From Saccharopolyspora elongata (GTDB lineage Bacteria; Actinomycetota; Actinomycetes; Mycobacteriales; Pseudonocardiaceae), in assembly GCF_004348985.1 (NCBI RefSeq), contig NZ_SMKW01000051.1:1-64000 (forward strand): DNA of 64,000 bases. The letters are read 5' to 3'. The position numbers were made by a program, and so were the translations under genes. The notes beneath the pieces were generated by a model that was not told the origin of the DNA, did no database searches, and saw only the letters and a list, made by a program, of their open reading frames with translations. This document shows positions 7,501 to 62,476 of this stretch, piece by piece (positions within the stretch are counted from its first letter, which is position 1; each line of letters begins with the position of its first letter).

Positions 7501-7522
7501 TGACAGGAAAGTTCCCATGCTC
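7501..7522 (+). repeat. Dispersed 22-bp repeat, single copy
   Basis: One copy of the window-wide element (core TGACAGGAAAGTTCCCATGC) lies between griH and the ohrR promoter. It is oriented opposite to most copies that follow a plus-strand gene. Confidence 0.8.
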
Positions 7523-11421: not shown

Positions 11422-11633
11422 TGACAGGAAGGTTCCCATGCCGCCAAGCCGCAGGCCGGATGACAGGAAGGTTCCCATCCTCACGGCCGTCAAGAGCCGT
11501 GATGACAGAAAGGTTCCCTTGCTGTCAGACGACAGGAAGGGAACCTTTCTGCCAAGCGGCCGGGCTGGAAGTGACAGGAAGGTTCCCGTGCTCGCACCGC
11601 CGGGGCCGGGGTGACAGGAAAGTTCCCATGCTC
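11422..11633. repeat. Cluster of six dispersed repeats with a hairpin
   Basis: Copies begin at 11422, 11461, 11503, 11531 (inverted), 11572 and 11612, between the convergent symporter and fadD genes. Copies three and four form a hairpin with 21-base arms (11506-11526 and 11531-11551, one mismatch) and an AGAC loop. Spacers between copies differ in sequence and length, so this is not a CRISPR array. Confidence 0.9.
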
Positions 11634-18596: not shown

Positions 18597-18781
18597 TGGC
18601 AGAAAGGTTCCCATCCTCGCACCCGCCGGCAACCGGTGTCCGGGCCAGGAACCGCGACCCGCCCCCACCAGTCGGTGGCAGGAAGGTTCCCATCCTGCCG
18701 TCCGGCTGGGGCTGTGGTGGCAGGAAAGTTCCCATGCTGTCGTCCCGCCAGGGCCGTGGTGACAGGAAAGTTCCCTTCCTC
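18597..18781 (+). repeat. Four dispersed repeats between two co-directional genes
   Basis: Copies begin at 18597, 18676, 18718 and 18760, all in one orientation, with the first three starting TGGCAG instead of TGACAG. They fill the gap between racemase and acyl-CoA dehydrogenase genes. Confidence 0.9.
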
Positions 18782-22062: not shown

Positions 22063-22124
22063 GCATGGGAACTTTCCTGTCACCACGGCTGCGGCCGGAG
22101 TGCAGCACGGGAACCTTCCTGTCA
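22063..22124 (-). repeat. Two dispersed repeats between convergent genes
   Basis: Copies lie at 22063-22082 and 22105-22124, both in the usual orientation for a plus-strand gene that ends upstream (ATGGGAA...CTGTCA on the plus strand). Confidence 0.9.
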
Positions 22125-25160: not shown

Positions 25161-25282
25161 GAGCATGGGAACTTTCCTGTCATCCGGCGGCCCGGAGGGC
25201 GTGAGGATGGGAACCTTCCTGTCATTTCGCGCCCGGCGAGGGCTCGTCTTGCGGTGGAAGTGACAGGAAGGTTCCCTTGCTC
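25161..25282. repeat. Three dispersed repeats in a divergent promoter region
   Basis: Copies lie at 25161-25182 and 25203-25224 (minus orientation) and 25261-25282 (plus). The second and third face each other. The site is unusual: it lies between two divergent operons and not after a gene end. Confidence 0.9.
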
Positions 25283-29590: not shown

Positions 29591-29683
29591 AAGCATGGGA
29601 ACTTTCCTGTCACCACGCATGGAGCATGGGAACCTTCCTGTCATTTCTGAGGCGCGAACGTGAGCATGGGAACCTTCCTGTCA
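29591..29683 (-). repeat. Three dispersed repeats after the glc operon
   Basis: Copies lie at 29591-29612, 29622-29643 and 29662-29683, all in the orientation usual after a plus-strand gene. Confidence 0.9.
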
Positions 29684-30257: not shown

Positions 30258-30279
30258 TGACAGGAAGGTTCCCATGCTC
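30258..30279 (+). repeat. Dispersed repeat before the fadA promoter
   Basis: One copy lies between the HIT gene and the fadA operator; orientation is opposite to that usual after plus-strand genes. Confidence 0.85.
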
Positions 30280-33875: not shown

Positions 33876-33913
33876 GTGAAAAGGCGCCGGGCCAACGCAG
33901 GCCCGGCGCCTTT
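33876..33913. terminator. Bidirectional terminator between fadB and the chaplin-like gene
   Basis: Sixteen-base perfect arms (33876-33891 and 33898-33913) with a six-base loop have AAAA and TTTT at their outer ends, so the hairpin can end transcription from both sides. Confidence 0.9.
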
Positions 33914-33927
33914 TCCGCTGGTCCTGC

Positions 33928-35491: not shown

Positions 35492-35617
35492 TGACAGGAA
35501 GGTTCCCATGCTCCAACGGTGCGAGCGTGCGCTCGACGTGAGGTGACAGGAAGGTTCCCATGCTCCAAAGGCGCAGCCCTGCGACCGGCGTGGAGTGACA
35601 GGAAGGTTCCCATGCTC
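35492..35617 (+). repeat. Three dispersed repeats after the tetR gene
   Basis: Copies lie at 35492-35513, 35544-35565 and 35596-35617, each followed by CAA. The orientation is the usual one for a minus-strand gene that ends nearby. Confidence 0.9.
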
Positions 35618-40210: not shown

Positions 40211-40232
40211 GAGCATGGGAACCTTCCTGTCA
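40211..40232 (-). repeat. Dispersed repeat after an MFS gene
   Basis: Single copy, four bases past the stop, between convergent genes. Confidence 0.85.
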
Positions 40233-42884: not shown

Positions 42885-43007
42885 GAGCAAGGGAACCTTT
42901 CTGTCACCCACCGCTGCCCGTCGGCCGGAGAGCCGCAGCATGGGAACCTTCCTGTCACCCGCCCCGCGCGCCGGGCCGGGCGTGGTGACAGAAAGGTTCC
43001 CTTCCTG
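42885..43007. repeat. Three dispersed repeats after an MFS gene
   Basis: Copies lie at 42885-42906 and 42936-42957 (minus) and 42986-43007 (plus). The first begins at the stop codon itself. The last carries GACAG and CTGTC ends that could pair. Confidence 0.9.
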
Positions 43008-47926: not shown

Positions 47927-47948
47927 GAGCATGGGAACCTTCCTGTCA
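47927..47948 (-). repeat. Dispersed repeat after the CPBP gene
   Basis: Single copy 14 bases past the stop, in the usual orientation. Confidence 0.85.
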
Positions 47949-49392: not shown

Positions 49393-49442
49393 AAGCATGG
49401 GAACCTTCCTGTCAGAGCGGTGGCAGGAAGGTTCCCATCCTC
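49393..49442. repeat. Head-to-head pair of dispersed repeats (hairpin)
   Basis: Two copies, minus then plus, with a spacer of about 6 bases, form a stem of about 20 base pairs with few mismatches, 18 bases after the stop of the hydrolase gene. Confidence 0.9.
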
Positions 49443-50992: not shown

Positions 50993-51043
50993 GAAAGCAT
51001 GGGAACTTTCCTGCCATGGTGACAGGAAAGTTCCCATGCTTTC
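50993..51043. repeat. Repeat hairpin with perfect 21-base arms
   Basis: Arms 50993-51013 and 51023-51043 are exact complements; the loop has nine bases. It lies ten bases past the patatin stop and five bases from the convergent symporter stop, where it would end transcription both ways. Confidence 0.93.
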
Positions 51044-52804: not shown

Positions 52805-52826
52805 TGACAGGAAGGTTCCCATGCTC
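52805..52826 (+). repeat. Dispersed repeat after the amidohydrolase gene
   Basis: Single copy between the amidohydrolase stop and the DUF3311 start, in the usual orientation for a minus-strand gene. Confidence 0.85.
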
Positions 52827-55406: not shown

Positions 55407-55456
55407 GAGCATGGGAGCTTTCCTGTCATCCGGTGAAAGGAAGGTTCCCATGCTTC
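55407..55456. repeat. Head-to-head pair of diverged repeats
   Basis: A minus copy (55407-55428) and a plus copy (55434-55456) face each other over a short spacer. Both have substitutions, so the hairpin has mismatches. It lies in a divergent intergenic region. Confidence 0.8.
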
Positions 55457-56876: not shown

Positions 56877-56898
56877 TGACAGGAAGGTTCCCATGCTG
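56877..56898 (+). repeat. Dispersed repeat at the end of the conservon
   Basis: One copy lies six bases beyond the cvnD stop. A more diverged copy may precede it at about 56851-56874. Confidence 0.85.
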
Positions 56899-56904
56899 CA
56901 ACAG

Positions 56905-57507
56905 CTAAGCGGTCCGGCGAATCCACCACTGCATGGCGTACTCGACCAGCCTGATCAGCGCCTGCTTGGTGGATTCGCGATTTCGCGCGTCGCAGGTCAC
57001 GATCGGGACGTCGGGCGGAATCGCGATGGCCTCGCGCACCTCCTCGACCCGGTGGAGCAGGGTCCCGTCGAAGCAGTTGAGCCCCACGATGTAGGGCAGC
57101 CGCCGGTCTTCGAAGAAGTCGATGGCCGAGAAGCAGTCCGCGAGGCGCCGGGTGTCGACGAGCACCACGGCGCCGATCGCGCCCCGGACCAGGTCGTCCC
57201 ACATGAACCAGAAGCGCTGTTGGCCGGGCGTGCCGAACAGGTAGAGGATCAGATCCGAATCCAGCGACAGCCGACCGAAGTCCATGGCGACCGTCGTGGT
57301 GTTCTTGTTCGGGGTCGCGTGCAGGTCGTCGATGCCCTTGCTGGCCTCGGTCATCACGGCTTCGGTGGTCAGCGGCACGATTTCCGACACCGAACCCACG
57401 AATGTCGTTTTGCCGACTCCGAAGCCACCCGCGACGACGATTTTCGCCGAGGTCGCGGTCGTGGACCGACCGGTGTGCACAGGTCGGGGTCGCGTTTCAG
57501 GAGTCAT
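56905..57507 (-). CDS. cvnD: Conservon GTPase CvnD
   Basis: The 200-residue small GTPase has a Walker A GGFGVGKTTF, LFGTPGQQRF as G3 and a later switch. It is the last gene of the order kinase, roadblock, DUF742, GTPase. It probably forms a membrane-linked complex with the other Cvn proteins that works like a G-protein-coupled unit. Confidence 0.93.
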   Translation of the reverse strand: MTPETRPRPVHTGRSTTATSAKIVVAGGFGVGKTTFVGSVSEIVPLTTEAVMTEASKGIDDLHATPNKNTTTVAMDFGRLSLDSDLILYLFGTPGQQRFWFMWDDLVRGAIGAVVLVDTRRLADCFSAIDFFEDRRLPYIVGLNCFDGTLLHRVEEVREAIAIPPDVPIVTCDARNRESTKQALIRLVEYAMQWWIRRTA

Positions 57508-57585: not shown

Positions 57586-58179
57586 TCAGAGCCGGCGAAG
57601 CCCACTCAGAACCCTCTCCATCAGCAACAAGTGCGACGTGCTGCCGTTTTCGTTCACTGTCTGGTGCACGCTTAGGAGTCCCATTTCGGCCATGTCGCCG
57701 AGCAGGACCTTCGCCACGCCGAGCGGGACGTCGAGCAAGGCAGCGACCTCGGCCACCGAACGCGGGTGCCGGCACAGTTCGGCGATGGAATGGTGTTCGA
57801 GCCGCTGCAGCCGCGCAGGGTGGCAGGACTCGCTGGTGGACACCAGGGTCTCCAGTTCCAGGCGGTGATTCGATCGCGTGCGCCCGCCGGTCCAGGCATA
57901 CGGCCGAATGTAGGTCGCTGCTGTTTCGGGCTCCTGGCTGGCTTCCTCGGGTGCCGACATGGCCGGCGCTTCAGCCGGTTCGGCCGACGGCCAAGGCGGA
58001 TCCGCCGCAGGTTGTGGAGGGACTTGCGGCTCCGGTTCGTCGCGCGCACGCTTGCGGCGTCGCCCGCGGCGGCCACTGTCGAGGGTGAACCGGTTGAAGA
58101 CCTCGGCCATGGCGTCAGCTTCGGGCGACTCTCGGTCGTCCCATCGGTGCCGCCCGGACGCGTCCGGACCTGTGCTCAT
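57586..58179 (-). CDS. cvnC: Conservon DUF742 protein CvnC
   Basis: The 197-residue protein has a variable N-terminal half and a DUF742 winged-helix C-terminal half (TYIRPYAWTGGRT, HHSIAELCRHPRSVAEVAALLDVPLGVAKVLLGDM). It starts seven bases after the cvnB stop. Confidence 0.92.
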   Translation of the reverse strand: MSTGPDASGRHRWDDRESPEADAMAEVFNRFTLDSGRRGRRRKRARDEPEPQVPPQPAADPPWPSAEPAEAPAMSAPEEASQEPETAATYIRPYAWTGGRTRSNHRLELETLVSTSESCHPARLQRLEHHSIAELCRHPRSVAEVAALLDVPLGVAKVLLGDMAEMGLLSVHQTVNENGSTSHLLLMERVLSGLRRL

Positions 58180-58186
58180 GCCGTCC

Positions 58187-58627
58187 TCACACCGACTGGC
58201 CGGTCATCACACGATTCGTTCCCTGCAACTGGGAGCGCAGTTCCGGGGTCAGGATCTGGCCGACTCGTTCCACCAGCAAAGCCATCTCGTAGGCGATCAG
58301 CCCCATGTCGCAATGCGGCGCGGCCAGGACCGTCAGGCACGAGCCGTCGCTGATCGCCATCTGCAGCATGAGGCCGCGTTCCATTTCGACCACGGTCTCG
58401 TTCACGGTCCCGGCTTCGAAGCAGCGCGCCGCGCCCTGGGTGAGGCTGAGCAGCCCCGATGCGACCGCTGCGAGTTGGTCGGCCCGGTCGGTGGGCAGTT
58501 TCGCGGACGCGGTCAGCAGCAGCCCGTCGGCTGAGACGACCACGGCGTGCGCCACGCCCGGAACTCGTTCGGTGAAATCCGTGACCAGCCAGCCGAACTG
58601 GTTCGGCTGGGAATTGTGGGCGTTCAT
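58187..58627 (-). CDS. cvnB: Conservon roadblock/LC7 protein CvnB
   Basis: The 146-residue roadblock/LC7 protein (FGWLVTDFTERVPGVAHAVVVSADGLLL) probably acts on the CvnD GTPase. The ATG at 58627 has GGAGG upstream and is chosen over a longer frame. Confidence 0.92.
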   Translation of the reverse strand: MNAHNSQPNQFGWLVTDFTERVPGVAHAVVVSADGLLLTASAKLPTDRADQLAAVASGLLSLTQGAARCFEAGTVNETVVEMERGLMLQMAISDGSCLTVLAAPHCDMGLIAYEMALLVERVGQILTPELRSQLQGTNRVMTGQSV

Positions 58628-58669
58628 CGGCCCTCCTGTCCTCTGCACTGATTCGGGTTGTCACGGGCG

Positions 58670-61636
58670 CTAGTCGGCCGAGGGCGAGTCGCGGAGGCTG
58701 TGCTTGCCTTCGCGGACGCCGCGCTGGAAGCTGGCCAGCCGTCCACGCATCACGTCCGCATCGCGGCGCGGCTTGACGTCCGGCTCGGTGGCCGTTCCCG
58801 GGACCAGTTGGGCTCTCGGGGTTCGCCGGGGCAGCCCGGCAGTCGTGTAGTCGGCGGTTTCCTGGTCGAGCAGCGGCTCGGGGTCCTGGACACTGTTGGT
58901 GCCGTTGTTGGCGTGCGGATTCGGGTCAGGCTGCGGGGATGCTCCCGTCGGCGCGGCGCCGTTGCGTGAGGTGAGCTGCTGGCGGTGGCGGCCGCGCCGA
59001 ACACCGGCTTGGAAGCTCGCCAGCCGGCCGCGAGCGGCGTGCGGGTCGCGGGGCGGGCGGGCGCGCCCACCCGACTCCGTGTCGGCGCTGCCGGCCAGAA
59101 GGTTCGCCTGCGGAACTCGAAGCGGAAGACCTGCAGCGGTGTAGTCGGAAGGTTCTGCCGCCGCAACTTCCTCGGCCCGCTGCCGGGCTTGGTCATTCGC
59201 GAAGGTCCACGAGCTCTGGCCACCATGGCCGTTGGTCCGGGCGGGCTGAGAGGAAGGGAACTTTCCTGTCGCCGGTGACAGGAAAGTTCCCTTGCTGTCA
59301 CCCTCCGCCGAGGCGGCGGGCCATTGGATGGCGGGGCGGGTGGCGTCGTGTGGGGTCGCCCGGAACCACGCGGACGCGAGATCGTCGAAGATCGGCGTCG
59401 GGGCCTTCGCGCCGTTGTGGTGCTCGGTGGCCTGTACGGGCTCCCGGGTGATCTCTTCGGTGTTGAAGGCGTCCTCGGGCGGCCCCTGCGGCGCGCCGTT
59501 GCTCGGGGAGCGGAACAGGTGGAAGCCGTTGCGCACCAGTTGGCGCTGGCCGACCGCGTCCTGTTCGGCCGCTTCCCAGTCGAACTCCTCCACGAGCGTG
59601 TCGGCGGTGCGGGCGTTGGGCACGATGCCGTTGGTCCGCTGGACCGGTGCCGAGGGCACGGAGTCCACCAGCAGTTCTGGCCCGAGGCCGACCGCGACGC
59701 ACACCCCGGTCGATTCCGGGCCGGGGCGCAGCTCCACCCGGATGCCGTGGCGGGCGGCGAGCCGACCGACCACGAACAGGCCCATGCGCCGGGACGTCGA
59801 CGCCTTGATCTCCTCGTTGCCGACGAGGCGCTGGTTCACGGCCGCGAGCTCGTCCTGCGACATGCCGATGCCGCGGTCGACGATGTCGATGCCCAGCGAC
59901 CCGTCGCCGCGCCGCTGCCCGGAGACTACGACCTGCGTTTCCGGCGCCGAGAAGTTCGCCGCGTTGTCGAGGAGTTCGGCCAGCAGCCGCACCAGGTCGC
60001 TCGCGGCGTATCCGACGATTTTGACGTGCGGCAGCGGCTGGACGATCACTCGCGGGTAGTGCTCGATCTCCGACACCGCGGCCCGGATCAGATCCGCGGG
60101 CGAGGTCGGCTGCGTGAACCGCCGGGCGGGGTCCGCGCCCGAGAGCACCATGAGGTTCTCGTTGTTGCGGCGCATCCGGGTGGCCAGGTGGTCCAGTTGG
60201 AACAGGGTCGCCAGCTGGTCGGGGTCTTCCTCGTCGCGTTCGAGCTGCTCGAACAGCCGCAGCTGCCGCTCCAGCAGGCCCTGGCTGCGCCGCGACACGT
60301 TGATGAACGAGTCGCTGTAGCTGCGGCGGAGTTCGGCCTGCTCGGTGGCGAGGTTGACGGCCTGGGTGTGCACGTCGTCGAACGCCCGCGCCACATCGCC
60401 GATCTCGTCGGAGCTCTCCACCGGCACCTGCTCGACACGGGGGCGGATGGCGTGACCGGCGCGGATGTCGGCGACCGCCTGCGGCAGCTGGTAGTTAGCG
60501 GTGTCCAGCGCACTGCGGCGCAGGACGTCGAGCGACCCGAGCAGGTGCCGGGCGACCACGACGACGACCGCGCCGGCGACCAGCAGAGCCGACAGCAGGA
60601 TCACCGACTCCAGACCCGCCATGTTGCTCGCGTTGTCCTGCAGTGAGAACGCGGTTTCGTGCAGCTGCTGGTCCAGGTGGTCTTGAAGCGCGTTGAGCTC
60701 GCCATGAGCCGTCCGGGACTGGTCCTTCCACACCGCTGCCGACACCAGCGCCGTGGAGAGCCGCGACTTCGAGTTGTCGCGCTCGGCCATCGCCAGCTGC
60801 ACCGAGGTTTCCCGCGCCGGGACCTCGGGCTTCGCGTACAGCTGGTCGTAGCGCATCCGCTGCTGAGGGGTGGCGGCCGCGCGGAACTCCTTGACCGCGG
60901 AGGTGCGGCGGGATTCGCTGGCCGCGAGCCGGGCCAGGTTGTCGGTGCTGAAACCGCCGCGGGTCAGCCCGGTGAGCACCAGGGCCTGCTGGAGCTGCAT
61001 TTCCTCGCTGATCTGCCCCAGCTCGTGTGCGGTGGTGGCCGTGGACACGAGTTGTGACGACGAGATCTGGCTGATCAGCGTGCGGTCGAGCGCCATCAGC
61101 ACGCCGATGAGCTCGGTGTAGGTGTTGATCGTCACCCCGGGATCGGCGTGACCGCCCAGCACCTGCTGGCGGATCGGCGCGAGCCCGGTGAGGCGCCGGT
61201 CGGTTTCCTGCCGGGCGAACCGGACCGCGTCGCTGTCCGGGGTGGCCCGCAGCCGCTGGCGCATGTCGTCCAGCGCCCGGTCCGTGGCGGTGAAGCGCTC
61301 CTGCACTTCCGGCGCGGAAACCGGCCCGCGCACCAGGAACTCGGCGGCCTTGCTGCGTTCCTGCTGCAGGCCGCCGGTGGCCGCGCGAACCGCGCTGCCG
61401 GTCGCGACCAGCCGGTCCAGCTTGGCGTATTCGTCGGCCTGGTTGATCTGGCTGCGGATCTGCAGCACGCCGAGCACCAGGGCGAAGATCACCGGAACGA
61501 GCACGACAGCGGCGATCTTGGTGGGTAGTTTCCAGTTGCGCCACGTGGTGATCCGCTCGGCGACCTTCGGCGTGGTGCGGGACCACCTGGACGCCCGGGG
61601 CGCGTTCGCGGCCGGATTTTCGAGTCCGCTGCTCAC
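58670..61636 (-). CDS. cvnA: Conservon sensor histidine kinase CvnA
   Basis: The 988-residue protein has two membrane helices (near residues 40-60 and 340-365), between them a nitrate/nitrite-sensor-type domain, then HAMP and an HATPase domain (ELLDNAANFSAP, DRGIGMSQDEL, GLFVVGRLAARHG). The dimerisation histidine is not obvious, as usual for conservons. A disordered tail of about 280 residues ends with two copies of RGRLASFQ-x-GVR-x-G. Residues about 780-796 (GTFLSPATGKFPSS) are encoded by an inserted repeat hairpin. The GTG at 61636 has AAAGGA upstream. Confidence 0.9.
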   Translation of the reverse strand: MSSGLENPAANAPRASRWSRTTPKVAERITTWRNWKLPTKIAAVVLVPVIFALVLGVLQIRSQINQADEYAKLDRLVATGSAVRAATGGLQQERSKAAEFLVRGPVSAPEVQERFTATDRALDDMRQRLRATPDSDAVRFARQETDRRLTGLAPIRQQVLGGHADPGVTINTYTELIGVLMALDRTLISQISSSQLVSTATTAHELGQISEEMQLQQALVLTGLTRGGFSTDNLARLAASESRRTSAVKEFRAAATPQQRMRYDQLYAKPEVPARETSVQLAMAERDNSKSRLSTALVSAAVWKDQSRTAHGELNALQDHLDQQLHETAFSLQDNASNMAGLESVILLSALLVAGAVVVVVARHLLGSLDVLRRSALDTANYQLPQAVADIRAGHAIRPRVEQVPVESSDEIGDVARAFDDVHTQAVNLATEQAELRRSYSDSFINVSRRSQGLLERQLRLFEQLERDEEDPDQLATLFQLDHLATRMRRNNENLMVLSGADPARRFTQPTSPADLIRAAVSEIEHYPRVIVQPLPHVKIVGYAASDLVRLLAELLDNAANFSAPETQVVVSGQRRGDGSLGIDIVDRGIGMSQDELAAVNQRLVGNEEIKASTSRRMGLFVVGRLAARHGIRVELRPGPESTGVCVAVGLGPELLVDSVPSAPVQRTNGIVPNARTADTLVEEFDWEAAEQDAVGQRQLVRNGFHLFRSPSNGAPQGPPEDAFNTEEITREPVQATEHHNGAKAPTPIFDDLASAWFRATPHDATRPAIQWPAASAEGDSKGTFLSPATGKFPSSQPARTNGHGGQSSWTFANDQARQRAEEVAAAEPSDYTAAGLPLRVPQANLLAGSADTESGGRARPPRDPHAARGRLASFQAGVRRGRHRQQLTSRNGAAPTGASPQPDPNPHANNGTNSVQDPEPLLDQETADYTTAGLPRRTPRAQLVPGTATEPDVKPRRDADVMRGRLASFQRGVREGKHSLRDSPSAD
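59251..59298. repeat. Repeat hairpin inside the cvnA coding sequence
   Basis: Arms 59255-59271 and 59278-59294 (17 bases, perfect) with a six-base loop lie within the coding frame of the kinase tail. It is the only one of about 38 copies found inside a gene. Confidence 0.92.
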
Positions 61637-62476
61637 GACGCAGTCCTTTCCCGCGCAGTCGAGGTGTTCACCGACGGCGCGTTCATGTGGTGGGCAGCCT
61701 GGGCCCGTCTGTGGTGTGCGCGGCAGGTTTTTTGCAGGGCTGGCGGCGCTGCGTGCCGCCGGTTTTCGCCGGTGGCCGGTGCTGTCGTCGATACCGGCGT
61801 CCGGAGCCTGCGATGTCGGGGGTGATCGCGGCCGCACCGGATTCGTCTTCGCCGGGTGTCGGTTTTGAGAACCCTACCGCAACGAAATGATCTTCCTCCG
61901 TTCTTGAATTCGGTTGGCTGACCTGCTGATTCGATGCCGATGGAGATCATTTTTGCTGGGACCATTGGTTGATCTTGGTAATCGCGAACACTGATCGTGT
62001 TCGGCTGGACGATCTTCAGAAGTGCTTTTGTCGCCCAATAGGTAGATGTTGGGGCTACAAATGACTTTTTCGTTGCAGAGCCTCGCCGAGATTCCGCCCA
62101 GTCGCCTGTCCTGCGCGTCGAGTGCCTTGTTGACCTGCTGAAATTTGCCTCGGCTCAGGGCTTTTCGGTTTGCGGAGGGTGGTTTCGGTGGCGCCCGCGC
62201 ATGGGGTCGGCACAGCAAAACGACCACATACTGTGATCGGCGAATTCATCAATGTGTGTGCTGTGTCGCTGCGCGTGTCGGTGCTGCGGCGTTCGCTGGC
62301 TAGACTTCCGAACCGGTTGGCAGCGCGGGCAGCGCGGTTCACCGACGCCCTGGATCCGAGACCTCTCGATAAAGCCGGATCGAATGCGAGCCAGGGCGCT
62401 CGGCCACGGAGCACTGGGGAACTCCGAAGCATCGACCGAAACCACGTCGATGCAGCTCGACTGCTTGGAAGGACGC
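61637..62476. other. Long intergenic region before DUF485
   Basis: About 840 bases between divergent cvnA and DUF485 genes. The centre (about 61880-62150) is less GC-rich than the rest of the window. I see no gene with a recognisable product, tRNA, or strong hairpin. It probably holds both promoters; an unrecognised small RNA is possible. Confidence 0.4.

Follow-up and report, generated by a model that had tools for sequence, protein, structure and literature searches.

The window analysed here is the first 64,000 nucleotides of contig NZ_SMKW01000051.1 from Saccharopolyspora elongata. Within cvnA, a gene coding for a conservon sensor kinase-like protein, it carries a hairpin composed of two inverted copies of a directional, roughly 27-bp unit, and 38 cores of this unit (at most two mismatches) were detected in the window. 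In genomes with complete positional data every site, or almost every one, falls in a single syntenic segment, roughly 165-290 kb long, on one arm of the chromosome. The presence of about a hundred clustered copies, kept between species, suggests that the units mark or organise this segment rather than being stray jumping repeats. From the sequence comparisons presented below we hold, with modest confidence, that the units are predicted binding sites of a protein marking a chromosomal domain, a device matS-like in its logic although not a member of that family.

Confinement of the repeated unit to one chromosomal segment

The consensus of the unit is gAGcATGGGAACYTTCCTGTCAcc. It contains a quasi-dyad, clearest in G034, a genome of another genus, where it reads GTGACAG-N13-CTGTCAC around the centre GGGAACnTTCC. 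Units are found singly, in direct arrays (commonest spacings of 31, 37-43 and 52-54 bp) and in inverted pairs (usually 20 bp from start to start). Singles and direct arrays outnumber inverted pairs outside G034 and G019, two genomes that carry palindromes. Five shuffled cores gave no match at zero to two mismatches in the window's contig (C207), so that a chance origin of the 38 real cores is excluded.

In the S. elongata genome (10.3 Mb, 277 contigs), exact cores number 91, all of them on five contigs with a summed length of 286 kb. A tRNA search of the same genome matches many other contigs, which indicates that the core search covered the whole of it. The five contigs are collinear with the genes of G020, whose gene order provides the reference numbering: C192 with genes 37-66, C207 with 67-105, C231 with 106-144, C9 with 148-169 and C213 with 171-204 (60.0 of the 86.4 kb of C192 and 60.0 of the 61.7 kb of C213 were used). 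Confinement was judged in genomes with complete core positions, and stretches from five genomes yielded 50-123 sites per genome at two mismatches or fewer. In G020, assembled as a single contig of 5,783,988 bases, the 91 cores detected with at most two mismatches all lie within 1,589,797-1,791,208, i.e. in 201 kb. Exact cores behave likewise in G006 (61/61 inside 231 kb), G007 (11/11 on one contig, inside 219 kb), G014 (98/101 in a 280-kb stretch, the remaining three having no assigned position) and G034 (30/31 inside 165 kb). The 32 exact cores of G001 are divided among three contigs: 19 towards the end of C1, ten on C6, which possibly adjoins C1, and an array of three on C7. Outside the main block, a further small group of cores was observed in the clade of G001 (G001 C7:179741-179840; G016 C10:547510-557836; G009 C10:105575-105709), and the contigs concerned also hold CvnA paralogues, tens of kb off.

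The segment is at neither the origin nor the terminus. In G020, parS is located at 0.70 Mb and a candidate dif at 3.60 Mb, and the block (1.59-1.79 Mb) starts 0.89 Mb and ends 1.09 Mb from parS, about one third of the way to dif. The dif pattern used matched once each in two of nine genomes, both times roughly opposite parS. The parS sequence (GTTTCACGTGAAAC, near the origin) is distinct from the site and was found separately, 0.8-1.4 Mb from the block, in G020, G034, G014 and G006; in G021 the block starts 0.87 Mb away, among the matches listed.

The limits of the block are close to each other in G034 and G020, the far sites of G034 flanking orthologues of genes 22/23 and 191/194, near the G020 limits (spaces 19 and 199). 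The genes of the segment, named by eye from N-terminal sequences, are of mixed content. An island of 40 kb in G014 (C2:3978412-4018498), bounded by the orthologues of genes 96 and 97 and lacking counterparts in the blocks of G020, G034 and G000, is free of sites. It may be an insertion; the aligned part of the adjoining gene 96 is short (357 of 492 codons). As evidence against spread of the repeat the island is weak, since a 42.7-kb stretch over conserved genes is equally free of sites.

Distribution and positions of the sites in related genomes

Exact cores are present in 20 of 22 Saccharopolyspora genomes (11 to 107 each), the two congeners lacking any exact core genome-wide being G013 and G019. 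Beyond the genus they were detected in G034 (genus g14) and in four of six sampled g68 genomes, that is, in 25 of 297 genomes of the family and 3 of its 46 genera. With two mismatches or fewer allowed, 8-18 sites were counted in each of seven named Saccharopolyspora loci, which span some 23 kb surrounding cvnA, and none in three Nonomuraea loci. In G031, from a further genus in which only genes 26-59 are syntenic, no 12-mer is enriched in the segment.

Open reading frames (ORFs) were called crudely, by conservation, and cover 66-88% of the G020, G034, G014 and G000 stretches. The initial annotation had described the repeat as otherwise intergenic, which is nearly right: 83/91 sites in G020, 47/51 in G034, 108/123 in G014 and 107/122 in G000 are outside conserved ORFs, and the remaining 8/91, 4/51, 15/123 and 15/122 are inside them, those apart from cvnA being near ORF ends or in ORFs that we regard as doubtful. 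Within the genus the positions of the sites, for the most part between genes, are fixed, and their DNA sequence is preserved even inside a protein gene. When orthologous intergenic spaces of 30-1500 bp were compared, site presence was concordant in 72/75 (G020-G014), 60/66 (G020-G000) and 63/68 (G014-G000) of them, and none of 5000 length-controlled permutations was as good in any of the three comparisons. In aligned site pairs (20, 19 and 17, taken only from spaces with an identical orientation pattern, i.e. 13/23, 13/24 and 10/28), the core is 94% identical, a figure inflated by the picking of cores for consensus similarity, the five preceding bases 78-87% and the flanks more than 10 bp away 27-50%.

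These data bear on the main rival explanation, namely an old palindromic repeat similar to repetitive extragenic palindromes and bacterial interspersed mosaic elements (REP/BIME), which would have spread locally in an ancestor and persisted without set function, the cvnA copy being a tolerated ancient insertion. REP/BIME elements are short, intergenic, partly palindromic, and single or arrayed, features that the present sites share in part; they are found genome-wide and are linked to RAYT transposases, whereas here one segment is occupied, positions are kept and genome-wide dispersal is absent. The intergenic elements of G034 are mostly near-perfect palindromes of 56-58 bp with similar arms that covary (15 pairs, 0/5000 permutations as high), which suits such a repeat; in Saccharopolyspora arm covariation is non-significant, with only 10, 5 and 7 pairs testable. 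A lean toward convergent spaces in G020 (10/20) and G014 (13/27) and toward the 3' side of genes also suits it, but G034 is without the convergent lean (4/21 versus 18/61 tandem spaces). Confinement to a single segment, intact cores beside strongly diverged flanks, the rare codons retained in cvnA (see below) and the many copies that are single units or direct arrays speak against this explanation, which we regard as unlikely.

Operators for a transcriptional regulator, or terminators, serving the segment genes would likewise be intergenic, and the sites are closer to the upstream stop codon (median 41-61 bp) than to the downstream start (111-115 bp). However, site strand is independent of gene strand (same/opposite in tandem gene pairs: 10/11, 11/9, 10/10 and 3/6), divergent promoter spaces are poor in sites (5/28, 6/32, 6/29 and 3/24) and the segment genes appear unrelated by eye. 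In addition, an Rfam scan of the window gave no match, and terminators would be required genome-wide. This explanation is considered improbable.

G019 carries variant palindromes, GGGAACTTTTC-N14-GAAAAGTTCCC. The six distinct copies fall within the interval of genes 80-107, on contigs C43 and C15; the copy at C15:65 is identical to that at C43:33712 and was treated as a contig overlap. In 20 further G019 stretches used as controls (381 kb), variant palindromes occur only in L112, itself that part of C15, and none was detected in L115 (C25), which is also from the block; looser single arms in C15 and C25 are outside these control counts. By hand, 5/6 palindromes correspond to site-bearing spaces of G020, which is weak evidence, as 13/28 spaces there have sites. 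In G013 the gene order is kept and most proteins are about 85-97% identical to those of G020. In the 60 kb of its sequence used, a core with at most two mismatches was found in one of 12 spaces that bear sites in G020, the best elsewhere having 3-8 mismatches, and some spaces contain altered palindromes. Two palindromes, GAGGACCCTCC...GGAGGGTCCTC, are located 1.9 kb apart (L092:4841-4873 and L092:6734-6766) in a G013 space that is site-bearing in G020; the flank on one side is common to both, and they may represent an element that has been altered or duplicated.

The inverted pair inside cvnA

The hairpin in cvnA consists of two perfect 17-nt arms, reverse complements of one another with a 6-nt gap (Table 1). 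As the initial annotation had stated, the cvnA frame on the minus strand is open across both arms, and the encoded peptide is GTFLSPATGKFPSS. The assignment of the host as a conservon kinase is consistent with its Pfam domains (NIT and HATPase_c) and with its neighbours, which belong to Roadblock/LC7, DUF742 and an ATP-binding family, the usual set of a conservon. That the segment is an in-frame copy of the dispersed repeat is also supported. The CvnA of the window and that of Saccharopolyspora shandongensis share 93% identity. In the tail of the window's CvnA (58670-59230), outside the kinase domain, a peptide is present twice in diverged form, DYTxAGLPxRxPxAxL ... RGRLASFQxGVRxGRH or GKH.

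A cvnA orthologue is present in 22/22 genomes of the genus. A recognisable pair occupies the same codons in 14 of them, one half being eroded in G005 and G018, and also in G034, the genome of another genus. The eight orthologues without it are those of G013, of G019 and of a clade of six species. The annotation had expected that some relatives would lack the segment, with clean borders revealing the insertion target; the absence was found and the borders were not, since G013 has a 7-codon gap, the others an altered sequence, and none a clean empty site. The segment is not common to all orthologues irrespective of the repeat, G013 and G019, whose genomes have no exact core, being among those that lack it. 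When the tail was left out of the CvnA tree, parsimony gave three changes, two of them forced by well-supported branches alone; G013 is nested in a 100/100 clade with five carriers, and the placement of G019 and G034 is uncertain. As the cvnA position is common to two genera, an old origin followed by later losses appears to be the simpler reading of this copy.

The annotation had instead inferred mobility and drawn an analogy with Rickettsia palindromic elements. A mobile palindrome of that type, inserted in frame in cvnA, would fit the in-frame location in the CvnA tail and the eight orthologues without the pair. The likeness is limited to an in-frame palindrome in a protein gene: here a single location in a single gene is conserved, some 90% of copies are outside conserved ORFs, and no sign of recent insertion was seen. 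The shared position in two genera largely contradicts such an element, and the site positions are fixed between species; given the concordance of intergenic spaces described above, little movement is seen, and the analogy fails on mobility, its main point. Moreover, among 2.9 million viral contigs only 11 stretches have the core, one exact core each, and no plasmid or phage match to an inverted pair of the window was obtained. A recent mobile in-frame insertion is not supported, and we judge a mobile element of this kind very improbable.

The codons TCA, ACA, CCT and GGA of the site are present in 11, 11, 13 and 14 of the 14 carriers, and elsewhere in these genes they account for 3.4%, 3.6%, 4.0% and 16.2% of their synonyms, a contrast that is an indication and not a test because the rows were chosen as carriers and have a common ancestry. 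The rare codons kept and the matching intergenic copies seem to point to selection at the DNA level on the cvnA copy.

A predicted domain-marking system

According to the reading that we favour, a sequence-specific and probably dimeric DNA-binding protein would load on the segment via the units, the dimeric reader being suggested by the quasi-dyad. Like MatP at matS, the loaded protein would fold, position or otherwise handle the segment as a domain. The cvnA copy would be kept since a site is wanted there, the CvnA tail tolerating the encoded peptide.

To our knowledge, domain-defining sites are known in few bacteria, chiefly Escherichia coli and its relatives. SlmA-binding sites are dispersed and region-biased, are read by a TetR-family dimer and extend over much of the chromosome; the present sites share the dispersal of short sites and the regional bias, and differ in forming one block. 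In the Ter macrodomain of E. coli, according to PMC3330122, MatP has a 13-bp target, matS, with 23 copies in an 800-kb domain. The two systems have in common a short site repeated inside one contiguous domain and rare or absent elsewhere, here with few exceptions. They differ in that the matS domain is terminal, whereas the present one lies on one arm, some 1 Mb away from parS, with 91 sites in 201 kb in G020, often in arrays. The matS sequence, GTGACRNYGTCAC, is unlike the site consensus in sequence and length, only the GTGAC half being similar, in G034. PMC5023128 describes maoS/MaoP as the site-specific system of the E. coli Ori macrodomain. It resembles the present case in the site-specific definition of a region other than Ter, and differs from it in that here the sites are many, dispersed and away from the origin. 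PMC3610266 describes macro-regions of Saccharopolyspora erythraea whose markers are clusters of transposons and long inverted repeats; the term "motif" is absent from its main text.

Several results weigh against the domain-marking reading. One core of G034 is only 0.11 Mb from parS, and a few cores of G016, G009, G017 and G001 are on other contigs among the matches listed. Coverage of the block is uneven, conserved genes 24-48 being site-free in G020, G014 and G034, and our confidence is slightly lowered because conserved genes include a site-free stretch. Positional concordance is weaker in comparisons with G034 (33/41, 34/43 and 26/32; Fisher p = 0.013, 0.095 and 0.0056), 87, 425 and 265 of 5000 permutations being as good. 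The covarying palindromes of G034 suit a hairpin or an amplified repeat equally, and the six-species clade retains sites elsewhere while lacking the cvnA pair. The codon count carries the restriction given with it. A Pfam search of ten region proteins gave no convincing binder candidate: two are TetR proteins, one has a DivIVA match below the cut-off, three match DUF6319, DUF305 and DUF3105, and four are without match. Finally, helical phasing of the direct arrays was considered, as the spacings cluster at about 31, 41-42 and 53 bp and beat a jitter null at 10.5 bp (93, 3 and 0 of 5000 as high); it was dropped because in two of the three genomes, G014 and G000, a period of 12.75 bp fits best, which makes the result equivocal.

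A more specific proposal is made tentatively, as something possible to which we give rather less than even credence: an actinobacterial domain system in which a predicted dedicated protein would read the 27-bp unit, present in 50-120 copies per conserved segment at about one third of the origin-terminus distance, the code drifting between species with its reader. The drift is proposed because of the variant palindromes of G019 and the almost complete loss seen in the stretch of G013 that was tested. Such a system in Actinobacteria is undescribed in the open-licence literature searched, and no paper on this repeat was found in the open-licence literature of PMC. Dense mid-arm sites that stayed in place while the surrounding DNA diverged may offer a handle on actinomycete chromosome organisation. 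A natural loss (G013) and a variant (G019) are on offer, and the 27-bp unit is usable as a probe for the putative binder. With the cvnA copy there is, in addition, a clear candidate for a protein stretch whose sequence has been written by selection at the DNA level.

The features of the window are collected in Table 1.

Table 1. Sites and conservon genes in the 64-kb window.
Feature	Position	Strand	Basis or remark
Single site	7501..7516	-	Core scan
Array, 6 sites (5 on -, 1 on +)	11422..11627	-	Core scan
Direct array, 4 sites	18597..18775	-	Core scan
Direct pair, 42-bp spacing	22067..22124	+	Core scan
3 sites (++-)	25167..25276	.	Core scan
Direct array, 3 sites	29597..29683	+	Core scan
Single site	30258..30273	-	Core scan
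Direct array, 3 sites, 52-bp spacing	35492..35611	-	Core scan
Single site	40217..40232	+	Core scan
3 sites (++-)	42891..43001	.	Core scan
Single site	47933..47948	+	Core scan
Inverted pair	49399..49436	.	Hairpin + core scan
Inverted pair	51001..51035	.	Hairpin + core scan
Single site	52805..52820	-	Core scan
Inverted pair	55413..55449	.	Hairpin + core scan
Single site, between trypsin/PDZ protease gene and cvnD	56877..56892	-	Core scan + Pfam
cvnD (Pfam ATP_bind_1)	56905..57507	-	ORF + Pfam
cvnC (DUF742)	57586..58179	-	ORF + Pfam
cvnB (Roadblock/LC7)	58187..58648	-	ORF + Pfam
cvnA, conservon sensor kinase-like, host of the in-frame pair	58670..61639	-	Longest-ORF start 61837; Pfam NIT + HATPase_c
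Site unit 1 of the cvnA inverted pair (GGGAACTTTCCTGTCG)	59256..59271	+	Arm 59254-59270 (AAGGGAACTTTCCTGTC); kept in orthologues
Site unit 2 of the cvnA inverted pair (GGGAACTTTCCTGTCA)	59276..59291	-	Arm 59277-59293 (GACAGGAAAGTTCCCTT); kept in orthologues

Two other strong hairpins of the window are unlike the site: one at 518-599, with 38-nt arms that are 82% complementary, and one at 33878-33915, with perfect 16-nt arms (GAAAAGGCGCCGGGCC).

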